64,000 nt of DNA. Origin: Desulfomonile tiedjei DSM 6799. GTDB lineage: Bacteria; Desulfobacterota; Desulfomonilia; Desulfomonilales; Desulfomonilaceae. Below are positions 17,706 through 26,756 of the stretch, piece after piece. Each line of letters begins with the position of its first letter. Position 1 is the first letter of the stretch. A program made the position numbers and the translations under genes. Where the stretch lies: contig NC_018025.1 of NCBI RefSeq assembly GCF_000266945.1, positions 3,476,001 to 3,540,000 of the forward strand. Reading direction: 5' to 3'. Below the pieces are notes generated by a model that saw only the letters and a program-made list of their open reading frames with translations, did no database searches and had not been told where the DNA came from.

Positions 17706-17798
17706 GGAGAGATGACCGAGAGGCCGAAGGTGCTCGCCTGCTAAGCGAGTGTAGGGTGTAGAGCCTTACCGAGGGTTCGAATCCCTCTCTCTCCGCCA
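17706..17798 (+). tRNA. tRNA-Ser (anticodon GCT)
   Basis: The acceptor arm pairs GGAGAGA (17706-17712) with TCTCTCC (17788-17794), then G and an encoded CCA. The anticodon arm is CTCGC-CTGCTAA-GCGAG, giving anticodon GCT (reads AGC/AGU). The long variable arm (GTAGGGTGTAGAGCCTTAC) and the GAGGGTTCGAATCCCTC T arm are typical of class II tRNA-Ser. Confidence 0.95.
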
Positions 17799-17816: not shown

Positions 17817-18359
17817 TCAACGAAAAAACAACCAGCATACCACGACCCCTGCCAACATACCTGCTGCATCCGCCAGCAGTCCGGCCTGGACCGCGTAGCG
17901 CGTGCGGGTGACCGATACTGCCCCGAAATATACTGCCACGACATACAATGTGGTCTCAGTGCACCCCGTGATGACCGCGGCAAGCTGTGCCTCGTACGAG
18001 TCAGCACCCCTGTGAGCAATAATCTCTCCCAGCATTCCCAGGGAAGCTCCGCCCGAAAGAGGTCTCATGAGACACAGGCTGATCACGTCCGGAGTGAGCC
18101 CGAGAGAAATCGCATACTCCGGCAGTGCCCGTGAGATGATGTCGATTGCACCGGAAGCCCTGAACATTCCCACAACGACCAGGATGGCCACCAGATAGGG
18201 AATGATTCGCACTGCAACGTCAAAGCCATCCCGCGCTCCGGTGACAAAGACTTCATAGACTTTTACACCCTTGCAGAACCCGTATACCGGTATGCCTACC
18301 AGGAACGCGAGGAACACAAAATTCGATGCCAAAGTCACAAAATCCGGAAGATCATGCAT
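17817..18359 (-). CDS. spmB: Spore maturation protein B-like (nucleoside-recognition domain) membrane protein
   Basis: 180 residues from ATG 18359, preceded by GAGGTG; this start overlaps the spmA stop (ATGCATGA). It is multi-helical, with RIIPYLVAILVVVGMFRASGAID and LMRPLSGGASLGMLGEII typical of SpmB and the Gate/nucleoside-recognition fold. SpmA/SpmB pairs occur in many non-sporulating bacteria, where the role is unknown, so sporulation is not implied. Confidence 0.88.
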   Translation of the reverse strand: MHDLPDFVTLASNFVFLAFLVGIPVYGFCKGVKVYEVFVTGARDGFDVAVRIIPYLVAILVVVGMFRASGAIDIISRALPEYAISLGLTPDVISLCLMRPLSGGASLGMLGEIIAHRGADSYEAQLAAVITGCTETTLYVVAVYFGAVSVTRTRYAVQAGLLADAAGMLAGVVVCWLFFR

Positions 18360-18966
18360 CCGTCGCACCTCGTTCCTGACCGTTCCTGTCACGACTCAGG
18401 CGAGCAAGCACTTTGGCTGCGGTAATCCCCACAATTGTAGAGATTGTGGTCGCCAAGATTGCGGGGAACACGATAGCCGTGGGATTCGAAGCCCCTCCCG
18501 CGGCCAGCAAGGCTATGGCACCGGCTGGAATTATCTGGAGACTCGAGGTATTTATCGCGAGAAACATGCACATGGCATCTGTTGCAGTCCCCTTCTCTTC
18601 ATTCAGTGAATCCAGATCCTGCATCGCTTTTATTCCGAGCGGTGTGGCCGCATTATTGAGTCCGAGCATGTTAGCCACCATGTTGGCGGCCATGCTTCCC
18701 ATAGCTGGGTGATTCCGGGGCACATCAGGGAAGAGATACCGAAGGGCAGGAGCTATTGCCCGGGTAAACAGTTGCACTAATCCGCTTTCATCGGCTATCC
18801 GCATGATTCCGAGCCAGAGCGCCATCATTCCCGTGAAACCGAGAGCAAGTTTAAATGCCTGTTCTGCACTCTCAGGAACCGAAGCGACAACTTCTCTGAT
18901 GTTTCCGGTAAAAAGAGCTACCAGTACAGAGCCCACCAAAAGAAAAAGCCAGATGACGTTTAGCAT
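18352..18966 (-). CDS. spmA: Spore maturation protein A-like (nucleoside-recognition domain) membrane protein
   Basis: 204 residues; GAGGT precedes the ATG. Membrane helices lie at residues 1-20, 40-60 and in the C-terminal third. Diagnostic stretches are MMALWLGIMRIADESGL, NHPAMGSMAANMVANMLGLNNAATPLG and LNEEKGTATDAMCMFLAINTSSLQ (each written only in part here: key residues G, N, A, T). It pairs with the overlapping spmB. The two genes lie 55 bases downstream of the primase-like gene on the same strand. Confidence 0.88.
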   Translation of the reverse strand: MLNVIWLFLLVGSVLVALFTGNIREVVASVPESAEQAFKLALGFTGMMALWLGIMRIADESGLVQLFTRAIAPALRYLFPDVPRNHPAMGSMAANMVANMLGLNNAATPLGIKAMQDLDSLNEEKGTATDAMCMFLAINTSSLQIIPAGAIALLAAGGASNPTAIVFPAILATTISTIVGITAAKVLARLSRDRNGQERGATDA

Positions 18967-19021: not shown

Positions 19022-20173
19022 CTATGCCTTACTTCGTATAAAGGAAATACTGGAAAGAGGAATAGTATAATGATCGTTGCCTGATTCAACACCGATAAGC
19101 CCGTTCTCATTCCATAGGAGAATGCCGTTGATTACCATGTCGGATCCAACGAGAAAAATCTCGACGTCTGTCCTGGAAGAAGAAAGCTTTTCGAGGATAC
19201 TGCTTGTCGTGGTTGTGCTTAAAGGATGTGCCGCAGGTTTTCGGGAAATTACCGTGGTGACGATCTCGGATTCCGGTTCGGCAGATATGATATCTGAATC
19301 GACTTCGGCTTCGTATTCTTCTTCTTCTCCCGGTGGTTCAGGGCTTTCGGCTACTCCTGTTGCGGCCATGGAGATATCGTCAATGAGTTCGTCAATGATG
19401 GTCTCGTCCAACACGAGAGAATCTTCGAGCGATGCACCTGCCATTGACCCGGAGAGTCTGTGCTCGATCGGACTTTCTTCCGCAAAGGATGATGCGGATA
19501 CCTGCTGGGGCGGTTTCGGCGCAGGCTTGGGCTGCGGAGGTGCAACTATCCTCTGTCCGAGATTTTCAAAATCCTGAATCGTGTACCGGAAATTGGGATT
19601 GATGAATTTGACATCGCAATTGACGGGTTTCCCTGGGACCTTGGTATTGACCGTTTCCGGAAGCCTCAGCACCGTATCCAGGTTGACATCCGTATCGCAC
19701 TGAAGGTGTTCGCTTATGGTGCGGAGCACCTTTTCAATTTTCTCTATGTCAGTGACTTCAAGAACCTGCTTCAGGAGCCAATAAAGATGCGCTCCTCTCC
19801 CCGATTCAACAATAATGGAAGGCGCTCTCGGAAAACTTCGAATCGCTTTCGCAGCTTGCTGGGGACCTTCATAGAAGATTCTCTTGTCTTCATGCCCTTC
19901 GGCACCTATGTCTAAGTCTGCCCAGAGTGCAACCAGATAATGGATGTGTTCCTTTTCGGCTTTCATCCGTTCTCTGGGGCATATGCCGAAGTAGACGTCC
20001 CTTTCTTCCCCATAATGTTCTTTTGCAAGAATTTCTATATTCGGGAAGTAGCGAGTACTCATCTTGGGATCGCCGCGCTTGACGCTCTTAACCAGGATGA
20101 ACCCCCTGTGTTCCTTATAGTATTGGGCAAAAAGAGCCTCAAGAAAATCTTTGCGGGTGAATTTGGCAATCAT
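19022..20173 (-). CDS. RepB-type archaeo-eukaryotic primase domain protein with Sm/Hfq-like C-terminus
   Basis: 383 residues. The N-terminal 200 carry the three catalytic motifs of the archaeo-eukaryotic primase (AEP) superfamily, RepB-like branch: WADLDIG at 84-90 (D86, D88), SGRGAHLYW at 124-132 and DTVLRLPETVNTK at 166-178. A Pro/Glu-rich acidic linker spans about 211-320. Residues about 323-383 look like an Sm fold: FLVGSDMVINGILLWNENG resembles Hfq Sm1 and HYTIPLSSISFIRS resembles Sm2. No helicase domain is attached and there are no plasmid or phage genes nearby. A good sigma-70 promoter lies upstream. The AEP call is firm; the Sm domain is inference. Confidence 0.75.
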   Translation of the reverse strand: MIAKFTRKDFLEALFAQYYKEHRGFILVKSVKRGDPKMSTRYFPNIEILAKEHYGEERDVYFGICPRERMKAEKEHIHYLVALWADLDIGAEGHEDKRIFYEGPQQAAKAIRSFPRAPSIIVESGRGAHLYWLLKQVLEVTDIEKIEKVLRTISEHLQCDTDVNLDTVLRLPETVNTKVPGKPVNCDVKFINPNFRYTIQDFENLGQRIVAPPQPKPAPKPPQQVSASSFAEESPIEHRLSGSMAGASLEDSLVLDETIIDELIDDISMAATGVAESPEPPGEEEEYEAEVDSDIISAEPESEIVTTVISRKPAAHPLSTTTTSSILEKLSSSRTDVEIFLVGSDMVINGILLWNENGLIGVESGNDHYTIPLSSISFIRSKA

Positions 20174-20214: not shown

Positions 20215-20243
20215 ATTGTATTAGCTGAGGGAAAAAAAGTCAA
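20215..20243 (-). promoter_or_regulatory. Sigma-70-type promoter for the primase-like gene
   Basis: On the minus strand, TTGACT (20238-20243) and TACAAT (20215-20220) are separated by exactly 17 bases, about 42 bases before the start codon. It lies in the gap after the TPR gene. Confidence 0.6.
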
Positions 20244-20278: not shown

Positions 20279-21694
20279 CTATCCCTGTTTTTCCTTCTTT
20301 TTTTGTGAAGCTGATTCTTTTTTATCATCAGTAGCGGAAGTCTTTTGTTTAGCTTTTGCAAGATTATCCTGAATTACTTTATTCGTCGGCACGAGCTTGG
20401 CTGCTTTTGTCAATAACACCGCTTCCTGTTTGTGGTCGCCTTTCTTACCTAAAATAACTGCGTAATCATTGTACGCTAACGCAAGATCGTTTTTTATTTC
20501 AGCGCTTGAGGGCAATACATGCATGGCTTTCTGCAGCATACGTATTTCTTCATCATGCTTGCCCATTTCACCCAATCTAAGGCCTTCGTTATGATACACA
20601 GCGGCCAGGTTAGACTGAACCGTCTTATCGTTTGGGTCTACTTTTATGGCTTTTTCCAGCAATTCCAAAGCCTTTCCAGAGAATCCGAGTTTTGCTTCAG
20701 AAACAGCTTTTTCTACCAGCAGGTTACATAGATTCGATTTCGTAGACTGATTACCTGCATCGAGGCGCAAAGACGATTCCAAAAGCGCAATGCGGTCTGC
20801 CGGCTTCAGACTGGAGCTTTCGGATACTGCATAATTGTTGTACGCCGCTGCAAGATTCGATTTTGTAACCGCATCGTTTGGAAGCAGATCCAAAGATTCC
20901 TTGAGTAGAGCGATTTGGGCTGTAACGTCGCCCTCCTTCCCCTTGAAGACGGCGAGATTCGATAAAGCCCTCGCCAGACTTTCAATGATTGGAGGATCCT
21001 TAGGAGAAAGTTTCAGAGCTGACTTGAGCAAATCCACCTCTTCCTGATGTGCACCTTTTTGCCCCTTTTCCAAAGCAAGGTTGTAATATGCAACAGCGAG
21101 ATTCTTCTTGATCTTCGGGTTTGTCGGATCCAGTGAACTGGCTCGCTCCAACTGGTCGACTTCTTGCTGATGACTGCCGCTTTTCCCTTTAACTACACCG
21201 GAATTGTTGACCAGAGTAGCCAATATCTTCTTGGCCGCAGTATTTTCGGGTTCCAATTGGGAAACCTTCTTCAGAGCCTCTATTCTATCATCAACCTCGA
21301 TTTTTCCCGGTGGAGCCGATGCAGCCTGCAACGCAATTTGCACGAAATTCGCCTTCATATCTTTATCTTCCGGAGCCAGGTCCACCGCGCGGGAAAGCGC
21401 TGCAAGAGAGTCTTTCAGATTTGTCTCGCGATATAACTTGAGCCCGAGATTATTGTACGCCACTGCCAACACACCGCGATATTTCGTGTTCTGCGGGTCT
21501 AGTTGGACAGCCTTTTCGAGTGACTCTATCGATTCGGGTATGCTGTCTCTGGAAAGCAAATGGCTGCCGTGGAAAAATGCATTTTCCGCCTGTATCTGGT
21601 CAAAACGCTCGTCTCCCCATGTGATACCGGGGAGAGAAAGCGCGATCGCTGCAAAAAGGGCTGCAATAACTCTGGTTGTATGCTGCGGGATCAT
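20279..21694 (-). CDS. Exported tetratricopeptide-repeat protein
   Basis: 471 residues with a signal peptide (about 1-27, cleavage near TWGDE). The rest is about ten TPR-like units of 34-45 residues, each with an AAAYNN-type helix A and a LDPxN-type turn (for example YRGVLAVAYNNLGLKLY). The C-terminus is Lys-rich (KKESASQKKKEKQG). TPR arrays bind partner proteins; this one is probably periplasmic or surface-exposed. The partner is unknown. The primase gene follows on the same strand after 105 bases. Confidence 0.85.
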   Translation of the reverse strand: MIPQHTTRVIAALFAAIALSLPGITWGDERFDQIQAENAFFHGSHLLSRDSIPESIESLEKAVQLDPQNTKYRGVLAVAYNNLGLKLYRETNLKDSLAALSRAVDLAPEDKDMKANFVQIALQAASAPPGKIEVDDRIEALKKVSQLEPENTAAKKILATLVNNSGVVKGKSGSHQQEVDQLERASSLDPTNPKIKKNLAVAYYNLALEKGQKGAHQEEVDLLKSALKLSPKDPPIIESLARALSNLAVFKGKEGDVTAQIALLKESLDLLPNDAVTKSNLAAAYNNYAVSESSSLKPADRIALLESSLRLDAGNQSTKSNLCNLLVEKAVSEAKLGFSGKALELLEKAIKVDPNDKTVQSNLAAVYHNEGLRLGEMGKHDEEIRMLQKAMHVLPSSAEIKNDLALAYNDYAVILGKKGDHKQEAVLLTKAAKLVPTNKVIQDNLAKAKQKTSATDDKKESASQKKKEKQG

Positions 21695-21932: not shown

Positions 21933-22916
21933 ATGATTGAAGTGGAAGGCCTCACGAAATATTATGGAAGTTTTACAGCCATAAAGGACGTGAATTTTCG
22001 CGTAGAATCCGGTGAGATTGTAGGTTTTCTCGGACCGAATGGTGCCGGCAAAACCACAACTATGAGGATTCTCACCTGTTTTTCACCTGCTTCGGCAGGA
22101 GTAGCGCGTATTCTAGGGATGGACACGCGAGACGAATCGTTAAAAATTCGTGAGAAAATCGGTTATCTCCCGGAGAATGTTCCGCTTTATGAATGGATGC
22201 GCGTTAAGAACTATCTCCGGTTTGTTGCACAGGCGAAGCATATTCCCAGTGGGGAAAGATCCAAGGAAATCAGTCGAGTTGCAGAGTCTGTGGGCCTGGA
22301 ACAGGTCATGGGCAAGCTGATCAGATCGCTTTCCAAAGGTTACAAACAGCGAGTCGGATTAGCCCAGGCATTGATGGGCAATCCGCCGATACTGATACTC
22401 GATGAGCCGACAATCGGGCTCGACCCAAAGCAGATTCGAGAGATCCGGCAGCTCATCAAGGGTTTTTCGCAAAATCGTACGGTGATTCTCTCCACGCACA
22501 TACTGCCGGAAGTGAGTCAGGTTTGCGACCGTGTCGTGATCATTAACAAGGGATCTATTGTTGCCGAGGACACTCCTGCGAATCTCATGCGAACTCACGG
22601 CAAATACTCACGTGCCCAGGTAACTGTTAGAGCCGGTGAAGCGGAAGCAATTTCAGTGCTCTCGCGAGTTTCCGGAGTTCGTTCGGTTTCGGCTTCGACG
22701 TCCCTCAATGGTGAGTCCAGCCTGCTGGTCGAAGCTGCTCCGGAGATGGATGTCAGACCGGCCTTGGCCAGAGCCGTTTTCGAGAGCGGGTGGGACCTGC
22801 TGGAACTGAAGAGCCTTCAGGTCAGCTTGGAGGACGTGTTTATCGATCTTATTACCGAGGAGACGGAAGACCAGGACTCTTCAGACGATAACGACCGCAA
22901 GGAGGCTGCTGTATGA
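21933..22916 (+). CDS. ABC transporter ATP-binding protein (GldA/CcmA-type)
   Basis: 327 residues; GAGGAGG precedes the ATG. It has Walker A GPNGAGKTT at 34-42, signature LSKGYKQRVGLAQAL, Walker B ILILDEPTIGLDP and switch His in STHILPE. The C-terminal 90 residues form the extra domain seen in GldA-type subunits. It powers the permease encoded immediately downstream (ATGA overlap). The four-gene order ATPase, permease, GldG-like, DUF4340 is a conserved exporter operon whose substrate is not established outside gliding bacteria. Confidence 0.93.
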   Translation: MIEVEGLTKYYGSFTAIKDVNFRVESGEIVGFLGPNGAGKTTTMRILTCFSPASAGVARILGMDTRDESLKIREKIGYLPENVPLYEWMRVKNYLRFVAQAKHIPSGERSKEISRVAESVGLEQVMGKLIRSLSKGYKQRVGLAQALMGNPPILILDEPTIGLDPKQIREIRQLIKGFSQNRTVILSTHILPEVSQVCDRVVIINKGSIVAEDTPANLMRTHGKYSRAQVTVRAGEAEAISVLSRVSGVRSVSASTSLNGESSLLVEAAPEMDVRPALARAVFESGWDLLELKSLQVSLEDVFIDLITEETEDQDSSDDNDRKEAAV

Positions 22917-23683
22917 CCGGTTTAGCTGCAGTTTTCCGAAAAGAAATGGCGGGTTACTTCACTTCACCCGTTGCTTACTGGGTAATTGCCTGTTTCCTTG
23001 TTATCTGCGGCTTCTTCTTCTGGGCCAATATATCGTTTATGAGCCTGGTGAGTCTTCAGGCTATGAATAATCCCATGATTGCGGAGCGCATCAATCTCAC
23101 CGACGTGGTCGTGCGGCCTTTGCTGCAGAATATGGGCATTGTGTTGCTTTTTGTAATTCCGCTGCTGACGATGCGGGTGTTCTCGGAGGAGAAGAAGTCC
23201 GGTTCGATAGAATTACTGCTCACCTACCCTATTTCCGATCCTGCAGTCGTTCTCGGGAAATACTTCGCCAGCACTCTCTTGTTGCTGATCATGCTCGCAG
23301 CGACATGGCCTTCAATGCTTCTCCTGTTCGGAATCGGCGAACCGGATCCGGGGTCCATGTTTGCCGGGTATTTGGGCCTTTTTTTCATGGGAGCTGCTTT
23401 CATCGCCCTCGGGGTCTTCGTGTCCTCACTCACGGAAAATCAGATCATCTCCGCATCACTGACGTTCGGATCTGCACTGCTCTTCTGGATACTCAGTTGG
23501 ACTTCGACGATTCTCGGCGAACCCTGGGGGGCATTGACGAAACAATTATCGATCCTGGAGCATTTGGATTCATTCTATAAAGGGTTAATCTCGCTTCCGG
23601 ATGTGACCTTCTTTGCTCTCTTCACGGCGTTCTTTCTCTTTCTCACCCTGCGATCTTTAGAAACATATAGGTGGAGGGGATAA
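22913..23683 (+). CDS. ABC-2 family transporter permease (GldF-like)
   Basis: 256 residues with six predicted membrane helices. The RKEMAGYFTSPVAYWV start and the PLLTMRVFSEEKKSGSIELLLTYP motif after helix 2 are typical of ABC-2/GldF permeases. The start overlaps the ATPase stop by four bases, and the GldG-like gene begins three bases after its stop. It forms the channel of the exporter. Confidence 0.92.
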   Translation: MTGLAAVFRKEMAGYFTSPVAYWVIACFLVICGFFFWANISFMSLVSLQAMNNPMIAERINLTDVVVRPLLQNMGIVLLFVIPLLTMRVFSEEKKSGSIELLLTYPISDPAVVLGKYFASTLLLLIMLAATWPSMLLLFGIGEPDPGSMFAGYLGLFFMGAAFIALGVFVSSLTENQIISASLTFGSALLFWILSWTSTILGEPWGALTKQLSILEHLDSFYKGLISLPDVTFFALFTAFFLFLTLRSLETYRWRG

Positions 23684-23686
23684 AGT

Positions 23687-25162
23687 ATGGCGATCAACTC
23701 TCGAAGCAAACTACTCCTGGGCGGCGGGACCGTTGCGGGTGTTTTCATTTTTTTGGCAATTGTCGCGGCCATACAATATATCGCTATTCAGAATCCGAAA
23801 CGATGGGATCTGACCAAAACAGGAAAACATACGCTTGCACCCCAAAGCAAGCAGCTCATGGATACACTCAAAGAAAAAAAGATCCCGGTGGACGTTTTGG
23901 TTTTCTATGAATCCAAAGATAGTGGAACAAGAGAAGCAACCAAAGATCTGCTCGATCAGTACAAGGATGTGTATTCCGAATTTCATTACAGCTTTCACGA
24001 TCCGGACAGAGACAGGACTCTCGCTCTGCAAAACAGCATAGACACCTACCCTACCATGGTGCTCAAGATCGGAGGGAAAGACGAGCGAGTCAACTCAATG
24101 AATGAGGAAAGCATCACGAACGCCATTTCCCGACTCCTGAGAACAGAGACGAAAAAGATTTATCTCCTGAAGGGGCATGGCGAGCTTTCCCCTGAATCCG
24201 ATGAAGTCGATGGATTCAAGGCGGCAAAAACGCAAATAGAAAAACAAAACTACAAGGTTGAAGATCTGGTTTTGCTCCAGGCTCCCGGCGTACCGGAGGA
24301 TGCAGCAGCAGTAATCGTTGCAGGTCCCAAGACCGACCCCATGGACTCGGAATTCCAGGCGCTTCGTCAGTACCTTGAGCGCGGCGGTCATTTGCTGGTT
24401 CTTCTTACGCCCTTCAAGACGCCAAAATTAGCCAATTTCTTGAAGAACTATGGATTTGTCACCGAAGAGGACATTGTGGTGGATCGTATGAGCCGAGCCC
24501 TCGGTGGCGATTATCTTATGCCGGTCATAACCACGTATATAAAGCATCAGATCACAAAGAACTTTACGCTTGCGTCGTTTTTCCCGGAAGTGCGGTCCGT
24601 GGTTGCCTCACGCGATTTCAAACAGGGAGTGGAGGTGCAGGAGCTGGCTCTCACAAGTGACGTGTCCTGGACGATAAATGAAGAACAGCTCAAGTCCGGC
24701 AATGCAAACTTTGATGAAAAGACCGGTAAGAAAGGCCCCATATCCGTTATGGCCGTGTCGACATACACTCCCCCTCAAGGAAAACCCGATCAGACCAAAG
24801 CCGCAGATATAGAAAAGGAAAAAGAATTTTCGGACGAGCCCCCGGACAAGAAAACTGAAGAAGAAACCGCAAAGAAACCGGTCAAGTCGAGGATCGTGGT
24901 GTTCGGCAGTTCTCTGGTGGCAGCCAACAAGTTTTTCAAACTCCAGGGTAACCCGGATCTCTTCATGAATTCGGTCTCATGGCTGGCAGAGGATGAAAAC
25001 CTGATCGCGATACGACCGAAATCGACCAAAGCAACCCCCATAGTTCTCACATCGAGCGAGTCCTGGGCGGTATTTGCGATTCCGCTGTTATTCGTGCCGC
25101 TCATCTGGATCGTAATCGGGGTGGTGGTGTTCGTTTATCGGAAGAGAGCGGTTCCGGCATAA
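23687..25162 (+). CDS. GldG-family ABC-type auxiliary protein
   Basis: 491 residues. One membrane helix lies near 10-35 and another near the C-terminus (about 463-485), with a large extracytoplasmic part between. The WDLTKTGKHTLAPQSKQLMDTLKE start and the GHGELSP segment match the GldG/ABC_transp_aux family. A charged Lys/Glu-rich linker lies near residues 370-400. It works with the ATPase and permease as an accessory subunit; in this family it probably binds the exported substrate or envelope partners. Confidence 0.9.
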   Translation: MAINSRSKLLLGGGTVAGVFIFLAIVAAIQYIAIQNPKRWDLTKTGKHTLAPQSKQLMDTLKEKKIPVDVLVFYESKDSGTREATKDLLDQYKDVYSEFHYSFHDPDRDRTLALQNSIDTYPTMVLKIGGKDERVNSMNEESITNAISRLLRTETKKIYLLKGHGELSPESDEVDGFKAAKTQIEKQNYKVEDLVLLQAPGVPEDAAAVIVAGPKTDPMDSEFQALRQYLERGGHLLVLLTPFKTPKLANFLKNYGFVTEEDIVVDRMSRALGGDYLMPVITTYIKHQITKNFTLASFFPEVRSVVASRDFKQGVEVQELALTSDVSWTINEEQLKSGNANFDEKTGKKGPISVMAVSTYTPPQGKPDQTKAADIEKEKEFSDEPPDKKTEEETAKKPVKSRIVVFGSSLVAANKFFKLQGNPDLFMNSVSWLAEDENLIAIRPKSTKATPIVLTSSESWAVFAIPLLFVPLIWIVIGVVVFVYRKRAVPA

Positions 25163-25301
25163 ACTGTAACCACCGATCCGGCAGCCTGAGGAGACCTGTA
25201 TTCCTCCTATGCATGTTGGTGCTGCTTTCACGATTCGAAGAGGTCTTTTCGGGTCCTGAGATCAAGACTTTACTCTGAAACTCCCTGAATGAGGAATTCT
25301 G

Positions 25302-26756
25302 ATGAAGTTACGGAATCTTGCGATATATGCTGTAATTTTGGCCGCATTGGCTGCTTACGTGTATTTCGTGGAAATCAAGTATAAGACGGAAAAACAACAA
25401 CAGGAAGATCAAGCGGCAAAGCTGATCCATCTCGATAAAGACAAGATAGTCCGCATTGAACTTAAATCTCCGGACCAGGTCATCGAGCTGAAGAAACCCG
25501 GAGATTCCTGGGTGCTTTCGGCTCCTGTCAAAACAGCGGGGGATCAGTTCGCAATCGGCGCGCTCGTGCAATCGGCGCTCGATGCCAAACCCGAAAGAGT
25601 GATTTCGGAAAAAGATGTGAAATGGGAGGAATACGGTCTGGAAAAGCCGGAATTCATCCTGACACTCGAAACGCCCGAAAAGAAAGCGCAAATAGATTTC
25701 GGAGCCGGTAATCCGTCCAAGAGCTCGTTTTACGCCCGAGTGGAAGGCCAGCCGAAATTGTTGCTGGTAGCCGACACTCTTAAGAACAGCCTCAACAAGA
25801 AAGTCTTCGACCTGAGGGAAAAATCGATCTTTTCCATTGCTCCAAACGATGTCGACCGCGTCGTGATATCCAAGGAAGGACAGACAATTGAACTGGAGCG
25901 GGAATCGCCCGACAAGTGGAATTTGACGAAGCCTGAGAAATTCAAAGCAAAGCTGTCGGTAATGGAATCAGGATTGAACAGCATCACTGCACTGAAAGCA
26001 AAGGACATTATCGACGAACCGAACACAGATGGAGACACGTACGGATTTGAAAATCCCCAGGAGACGATTCATCTCTCCGGGGCCAAATTGGCTCAAACCC
26101 TCATTGTAGGCAAGCCCAAGCAAGATCCGAAGGAGTCTCAGGCTCCCGGGTCAACCTCCGTGTACGCCAAATTGAAAGATCAGCCTATGATCTATGTGAT
26201 CGAAGAGCGAGCACTGAAGAGCCTGAAAACCGATCCGAAAGATCTCAGGGATCGCTCTGTGATGGCGTTGAATCCATCGGACATCGAGAAGATAGAAGTC
26301 GCTGTGGACGGCAAGACATGGCTGCTGGTGCAAAAGGATAAGAAATGGTCCATGGAGCAACCGGAAAAGAAAGAAAACCTGGACTCCTGGGTTGTAAGCG
26401 GACTCTTGTGGGCTTTGAAAGACCTTGAGTGGAAGTCCACGCTACCCTCGACAGATCCCGCGGCAACTCTCCTGGAGAAACCGCAGCTTGTCGCATCCTT
26501 CTACCGGAAGAACGAAAAAGATCCCATCGTATTCAAAGCGGCCTGGGAAGAGTCAAAAAGCACGCCAGAGAATAAGCCCGATGAGAAAAAGGGCGAAGCC
26601 GCAGCAGCACAACCGGATACCGGTGACATTAAGACTCCCGAAACCGTAAACGTTTCCGTATCGCCTTCTCCGGAACAGAACACCATATTCAAAATAGACG
26701 GCGGTTTTATCGATCGTATGAGGGGCGACCTGCTGCGTATAAGTGAGAAGAAATAA
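25302..26756 (+). CDS. DUF4340-domain protein of the ABC exporter operon
   Basis: 484 residues with one N-terminal membrane helix (about 5-22) and a long extracytoplasmic region. Repeated DUF4340-type units begin with DKIVRIELKSPDQVIELKK and recur near residues 180 and 320 (DVDRVVISKEGQTIELER and DIEKIEVAVDGKTWLLVQ). DUF4340 genes regularly follow GldG-like genes. The 139-base gap before it holds only a likely translation leader. Function unknown; probably an envelope partner of the exporter. Confidence 0.85.
   Translation: MKLRNLAIYAVILAALAAYVYFVEIKYKTEKQQQEDQAAKLIHLDKDKIVRIELKSPDQVIELKKPGDSWVLSAPVKTAGDQFAIGALVQSALDAKPERVISEKDVKWEEYGLEKPEFILTLETPEKKAQIDFGAGNPSKSSFYARVEGQPKLLLVADTLKNSLNKKVFDLREKSIFSIAPNDVDRVVISKEGQTIELERESPDKWNLTKPEKFKAKLSVMESGLNSITALKAKDIIDEPNTDGDTYGFENPQETIHLSGAKLAQTLIVGKPKQDPKESQAPGSTSVYAKLKDQPMIYVIEERALKSLKTDPKDLRDRSVMALNPSDIEKIEVAVDGKTWLLVQKDKKWSMEQPEKKENLDSWVVSGLLWALKDLEWKSTLPSTDPAATLLEKPQLVASFYRKNEKDPIVFKAAWEESKSTPENKPDEKKGEAAAAQPDTGDIKTPETVNVSVSPSPEQNTIFKIDGGFIDRMRGDLLRISEKK

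Follow-up and report, generated by a model that had tools for sequence, protein, structure and literature searches.

A gene in the chromosome of Desulfomonile tiedjei DSM 6799 joins an AEP primase-polymerase domain of the RepB'/S-2L type, through a low-confidence linker that carries an acidic helix, to a C-terminal domain confidently predicted to adopt an Hfq fold, and this pairing of AEP and Hfq is real, conserved and unusual. The gene lies within the 64,000-nucleotide stretch of DNA analysed here (the window), in a genome of 6.53 Mb and two contigs whose close relatives are Desulfomonile and metagenome-assembled genomes of the Desulfomonilaceae. The original prediction had combined a RepB-type primase with an Sm/Hfq-like C-terminus, and homologues with both domains were found in eight of the 18 genomes of the family, which consists of sulfate reducers, the ninth tail-bearing genome holding a tail fragment. 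The seven other full-length orthologs are 51-80% identical to the window protein. Searches for Hfq together with AEP, primase or PrimPol found no report of such a fusion in those portions of the open literature that they reached. We consider it somewhat probable that the protein is a domesticated phage- or plasmid-type AEP primase-polymerase, without a helicase, in which a pocket-less Hfq-fold domain serves as a passive ring.

Table. Positions of the AEP-Hfq gene, its motifs and domains, and neighbouring features in the window, with the paralogs found in the family.
Feature	Position	Strand	Details
AEP-Hfq fusion gene	19022..20173	-	383 aa, ATG start
AEP primase-polymerase domain, residues 1-206	19556..20173	-	Model and PHROG primases
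Motif 0, DVYFG (residues 59-63)	19985..19999	-	Y61 and F62 in 8/8 orthologs
Motif I, WADLDIG (residues 84-90), putative catalytic D86 and D88	19904..19924	-	D-x-D in 8/8 orthologs
Motif II, SGRGAHLYW (residues 124-132)	19778..19804	-	S, G, G and H in 20/20 family rows
Motif III region (residues 159-178), D160 then R170-x-P-x-T-x-N-x-K	19640..19699	-	D160 in 7/8 orthologs
Conserved acidic linker helix (residues 250-270), EDSLVLDETIIDELIDDISM	19364..19426	-	Kept in 7/8 orthologs
Predicted Hfq-fold (Sm) domain, residues 323-383	19025..19207	-	Predicted model, structural matches, residue table
Sigma-70-type promoter, TTGACT-17-TACAAT	20215..20243	-	Conserved in 7/8 orthologs
TPR protein, upstream neighbour	20279..21694	-	Signal-peptide-like N-terminus (by eye)
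Gate-domain protein, downstream neighbour	18352..18966	-	Presumably SpmA-like
Gate-domain protein, downstream neighbour	17817..18392	-	Presumably SpmB-like
tRNA-Ser gene	17706..17798		Adjoins Gate-domain gene
Divergent ABC transporter cluster	21933..26756	+	ATPase, permease, ABC_transp_aux, DUF4340
12 full-length AEP paralogs (L002, L016, L019-L024, L026-L029)			Catalytic acids lost

Residues 52-205 of the window protein were matched by PHROG phage primase/polymerase families (E 2.1e-10 to 2.4e-7). The Pfam model RepB_primase did not match the protein, and it matched two relatives in the class, L017 and L018, weakly and under its cut-off. AlphaFold predictions, all of monomers, came from two runs: one with six sequences gave the tail and linker and had an unusable AEP part (ten-residue means 26-58), and a second with 55 sequences modelled residues 1-212 at pLDDT 91 and pTM 0.89 (m8ecd37a98b5d). 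The solved structure closest to the AEP model was the AEP domain of the cyanophage S-2L PrimPol, an All3500-like AEP of the PrimPol-PV1 supergroup (6zp9; Z 17.9, rmsd 2.7 over 172 residues, 14% identity). The same fold was seen in the RSF1010 primase RepB' (3h20, Z 14.8; 3h25, Z 14.1), and the next row after these structures reached only Z 10.3. Sequence searches of the PDB, performed with the whole protein and with the ortholog profile, returned nothing relevant. Thus the RepB-type AEP core of the original prediction was borne out by model, structural matches and phage families, and the N-terminus of the window protein is, as modelled, an AEP of the RepB'/S-2L type. RepB' serves a plasmid replicon, whereas the window gene is chromosomal and none of the neighbours scanned is a replication gene.

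With tblastn, AEP-domain relatives turned up in phage records (97) and plasmid records (12), each at less than 60% identity. Scanning viral sequences with a motif II pattern picked out 447 stretches, and in 417 of them an AEP-domain relative is encoded; the best 80 of these 417 relatives formed the viral AEP set, and 49 were left after near-copies had been removed. These 49 sequences and six ortholog sequences make up alignment A7 (55 rows). Several relatives carry labels that are apparently wrong, namely 'integrase' in phage records (H1, H8, H10, H14, H15, H16 and H23) and 'DNA-binding response regulator' in plasmid records (H33, H34, H37, H38, H41 and H42).

AEP primases like this one are commonly joined to helicase domains in phages and plasmids, and DUF3987 is a predicted helicase (both according to excerpts of PMC5862659). 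L017 and L018, which are class relatives of the AEP outside the family (30-32% identity), are AEP-DUF3987 primase-helicases, whereas the window protein lacks DUF3987 and, at E values up to 10, matched no helicase domain of Pfam or NCBIfam. The window protein also differs from S-2L PrimPol, which in the passages of PMC8065100 consulted has PriCT-2 and VirE-like domains after the AEP; neither was found in the window protein, whose C-terminus has a predicted Hfq fold. The Pfam search of the window protein gave no PriCT match, and residues 207-322 are of low confidence in the model. Because the PriCT-2 of S-2L was not found, the protein may be poor at priming, as distinct from polymerisation. On four viral contigs (L100, L101, L107 and L132) the AEP proteins are 294-329 aa long, too short for a complete helicase domain to fit in the same ORF.

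The signatures listed by the original prediction, WADLDIG, SGRGAHLYW and DTVLRLPETVNTK (residues 166-178), occur in the order it gave. In the 55 rows of A7, position 86 is D or E and position 88 is D throughout, position 160 is always D or E, H129 is invariant (the viral rows having been chosen on motif II), and position 61 is aromatic in all rows but one. D166 was considered as the motif III acid and rejected: the phage set has a near-invariant acid ten residues before R170, which identifies D160 as the probable third catalytic acid. Sections of PMC8065100 give E85, D87 and D146 as the metal ligands of S-2L PrimPol, H118 and R157 among its triphosphate contacts, and Y63 as its steric gate. 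Judged by motif and spacing, the window protein shares the motif I acids, the motif II His and the motif III acid with its following Arg, so that E85, D87, D146, H118, R157 and Y63 appear to correspond to D86, D88, D160, H129, R170 and Y61 or F62, respectively. By this likeness H129 is probably a triphosphate contact, and either Y61 or F62 is probably the steric gate. The Asp pair D86/D88, on which the original prediction depended, is kept in all eight orthologs.

The paralogs that have lost catalytic Asp residues, which the original prediction did not foresee, occur in eight of the nine tail-bearing genomes and in none of the nine remaining genomes of the family. Position 86 in the 12 full-length paralogs is Gly (11) or Ala (1), such that the first acid is absent from every one, and position 160 holds an acid in a single case (Glu, L024). 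L030 was kept out of this set as a partial sequence of 95 aa at a contig edge; its first residues are nearly those of L022, and it too has Gly at position 86. By eye, the paralog tails are repetitive and probably helical, in place of the ortholog Sm domain. In the six paralog loci inspected the genes stand alone with few common neighbours; a conserved partner was considered and set aside, the four-gene block common to G016 and G012 being perhaps inherited synteny.

In a tree of 36 rows (20 family sequences and 16 viral ones hand-picked from the 49), the family rows formed a single clade against the viral rows (100/99), and so, within it, did the 12 paralogs (100/99). Because L015 branches with the paralogs (92/59), monophyly is not established for the eight orthologs, and the ortholog status of L015 rests on its tail and locus. 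This is the most diverged ortholog (about 51% identity); position 160 is Gly, and both the promoter and the linker helix are missing, as if the gene were decaying.

The paralogs bear on the possibility of a catalysis-free scaffold, in which the AEP domain would only bind nucleotides or DNA and the protein would be structural or regulatory like its paralogs. Although 11 of the 12 paralogs persist with neither the first nor the third carboxylate, no PriCT or helicase domain was found, and L015 has lost D160, this explanation is unlikely given that seven of the eight orthologs keep all three putative metal-binding carboxylates (D86, D88 and D160) and all eight keep R170. Moreover, the AEP domain shows pN of only 0.025-0.09 in five ortholog pairs whose synonymous change is near saturation (pS 0.65-0.92), a level at which dN/dS ratios (0.0) are meaningless, so that pN alone was used. 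End branches in the tree are also short in the orthologs (0.02-0.25) and longer in the paralogs (0.15-0.83).

To the other side of the linker, the tail was modelled by AlphaFold as a helix followed by five strands (residues 331-380, pLDDT 84-91). Structure prediction and structural search of this region had been named beforehand as the test of the proposed C-terminus, and the outcome was a confident Sm/Hfq fold. Among the 50 Foldseek matches listed all were Hfq, the top one being 6gwk_M (E 2.0e-4, probability 1.00, TM-score by target 0.83), and all of the 50 matches listed by VIA were likewise Hfq (Z 9.8-11.1). By sequence the likeness was weak. The Pfam family of cyanobacterial Hfq, Hfq_1 (PF21979), matched the window tail alone at E 0.01 and 16.4 bits, below its curated cut-off of 27, and did not match the full-length window protein. 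Five of the nine tails were matched by this model (best E 0.0053, 16.4 to 17.3 bits where shown, against the same cut-off) and four were not, nor were two of the four ortholog tails in a separate Pfam test. Genome-wide searches with the Hfq_1 (up to E 10) and Hfq (PF17209) models found the canonical Hfq and not the tail, hhalign of the tails with Hfqs of the class gave a Prob of 2.4% and E 0.02 over 39 columns, and a PDB sequence search with the tail profile brought up no Hfq within E 10. When this profile was scored on seven Hfqs, the two cyanobacterial ones were best (11.0 and 9.0 bits, reached by 0/300 shuffles each) and the other five ranged from 6.7 to -0.2 bits; in the shuffle control three of the seven were reached by 0/300, three by 1-2/300 and Aquifex Hfq by 43/300. 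The sequence link being weak, the Hfq assignment rests on structure, and with that qualification the Sm/Hfq fold of the tail is confidently predicted.

The RNA pocket was assessed by aligning nine tails, including the G010 fragment that is outside the eight orthologs, with six Hfqs. The equivalents of Q8, F42, Y55, K56 and H57 (which we take to be E. coli Hfq pocket numbering) are T/S/V/R, G/N, P, L/V/I and S/T, respectively, and the E. coli residues are kept in none of the nine tails. The equivalents of the rim residues R16 and R17 are Ser, Thr or Ala in all tails but one, and the YKHA signature and proximal RNA pocket of canonical Hfq (PF17209) were found in none. At the C-terminal end the alignment register agrees with structural end points (4jrk_C, VIA), model residue 383 falling on E. 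coli 66. Judged from model and alignment, the tail is Hfq by fold and appears to lack the proximal-face RNA-chaperone feature; distal-face or other nucleic-acid contacts may be made.

The nearest in sequence of the seven Hfqs compared, the two from cyanobacteria (3hfo, Ssr3341; 3hfn, Asl2047), resemble the tail in fold and in having pocket residues largely replaced, and eight of the nine tails share with them a Trp four residues past the Sm1 Gly. In the sections of PMC10989914 consulted, cyanobacterial Hfq lacks key RNA-binding residues, has very low RNA affinity and serves type IV pilus biogenesis with PilB and EbsA as a free-standing small protein, whereas the tail is fused to an AEP. The replaced pocket and this kinship both speak against the RNA binding that the original prediction had attached to the C-terminus. 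A second association of the two folds is described in extracts of PMC3543421: like the window gene, Thermococcus plasmids combine an Hfq-like domain and an AEP prim-pol in the same replicon, which is a precedent for an Hfq/AEP link in mobile replicons, but there the Hfq-like domain is a separate protein, mostly with a zinc finger, encoded just downstream of a helicase gene. These plasmids, the confidently predicted fold and the distal or rim contacts that could still be made would all suit an RNA-guided or RNA-regulated primase, in which the Hfq domain would capture RNA or A-rich nucleic acid and pass it to the active site of the AEP. We regard such an enzyme as rather improbable, however, since the pocket equivalents are replaced in every tail, R16 and R17 in all but one, and a separate canonical Hfq is encoded elsewhere in the genome, as it is in 36 of the 42 class genomes (the window host counted). 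With its pocket residues replaced, the tail more probably serves in assembly of the enzyme than in small-RNA binding. Hfq subunits are joined through strands 4-5, where a 15-residue stretch of the tail holds Y369, I371, P372, S375 and F378, five of its 13 invariant positions.

The interdomain linker comprises about 116 residues of low confidence in the model. Within it the stretch around LVLDETIIDELIDDISM (residues 250-270) is nearly unchanged in seven of the eight orthologs; over five ortholog pairs pN is 0.02-0.11 for the helix against 0.32-0.45 across the whole linker, and 0.13-0.28 for the Sm domain. The AEP domain, linker helix and Sm domain are therefore all under constraint. The acidic helix is probably a partner-binding peptide. 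By eye, paralogs L016 and L023 keep a VLDE patch like this helix.

Outside the family, AEP matches (in 24 class genomes and among 395 phylum genomes) cover the AEP part alone. A tail search of 42 class genomes returned the nine family members and one weak match (E 0.08), and of 395 phylum genomes three family members and one weak partial match (E 0.005). Against the 80 viral AEP proteins (the best 80 of 417 relatives) the tail profile gave nothing under E 0.36, and viral scans confirmed none of 284 stretches with the tail alignment and none of 16 with the whole-family alignment.

Within the family, the AEP-Hfq gene sits at one stable locus. The TPR gene is upstream in all seven other full-length ortholog loci, the Gate-domain pair is downstream in five of the seven and also adjoins the G010 tail fragment, and all four genes of the ABC cluster are present in the six ortholog loci compared. 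Of the nine family genomes without the tail, four have an empty site, where no gene separates the TPR gene from the Gate-domain pair; two others have contigs ending inside the TPR gene and three (G003, G004 and G007) were outside this comparison. Since the tail is absent from nine of the 18 family genomes, the four with an empty site, at least, can do without the gene. In G012 the TPR and AEP-Hfq genes are about 1.5 kb apart, with three extra ORFs of at least 70 aa in between (L091:9876-11356). In G010 the linker and Hfq tail, with no recognisable AEP core, stand beside the Gate-domain genes (L008:128-691), and the contig ends at this fragment, reflecting either a disruption or an assembly error.

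The promoter proposed in the original prediction recurs in seven of the eight orthologs as TTGAC-17 nt-TAnAAT or TATAGT, with 41-48 nt from the end of the -10 box to the ATG. Only 0-3 of 300 shuffles equalled each of these seven matches; L015 is the exception (63/300). Promoter matches counted in the window alone are not above chance (7 vs 4.4, sd 2.2), so it is conservation that constitutes the evidence. The description of an orphan chromosomal gene also held, as no helicase, plasmid or phage gene was present among the seven window neighbours scanned. None of these seven was an integrase, and in the genes scanned no partner of matching function travels with the AEP-Hfq gene.

The locus also speaks to a role in defence, an idea already voiced with the original prediction, or in other stress signalling, where the AEP core would make a product other than a primer. 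CRISPR-associated Prim-Pol structures were among the AEP fold matches, the tail is patchily present (nine of 18 family genomes), and the TPR neighbour has one weak PADLOC match, to an oligonucleotide cyclase model (E 0.0056, 14.1 bits), which covers the stretch where Pfam finds TPRs. Nevertheless, neither the protein nor the paralog L002 had a PADLOC match at E 0.01, and the gene holds a fixed position in a conserved stretch of chromosome rather than in an island, its inherited neighbours being of unrelated kinds, which makes this role improbable. Finally, the gene might be suspected to be what is left of an integrated, decaying phage or plasmid, given the phage and plasmid replicases among the AEP kin, the coreless G010 copy at a contig edge and the D160 loss in L015, but the constraint and the conserved promoter and position of the other orthologs make this hardly credible.

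For a domesticated primase-polymerase carried on a passive ring, the following mechanism can be envisaged. The Hfq domains would assemble into a ring, probably of six subunits, from which several AEP domains would hang on flexible linkers, where those of relatives in mobile elements would hang from a helicase ring. Excerpted accounts describe related layouts: in poxvirus D5 the primase is flexibly attached to a hexameric ring, and NrS-1 polymerase has a ring-shaped architecture. The acidic linker helix would recruit a partner, and the enzyme would make short primers or fill gaps on chromosomal single-stranded DNA. We infer a task in repriming, gap filling or other nucleotidyl transfer, of which repriming or gap filling would be the most economical for a live chromosomal AEP. 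The paralogs may be pseudoenzymes belonging to this system, or they may be left over from its expansion. A bolder proposal, which we put forward tentatively, is that the protein represents a new class of cellular primase-polymerase, in which an ATP-independent Hfq-type ring replaces the hexameric helicase ring of a phage replicase for six-armed, motorless repriming and the dead paralogs serve as regulatory subunits.

Taken together, the data describe an AEP primase that at least seven genera have retained as a chromosomal gene, with a predicted Hfq fold in place of a helicase. The apparently live and dead primases in the same genomes offer a natural comparison, and the system would show how a phage replication enzyme turns cellular. 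If the tail does serve protein assembly and not RNA handling, it would be a further case, beside cyanobacterial Hfq, of the Hfq fold being used for this purpose.
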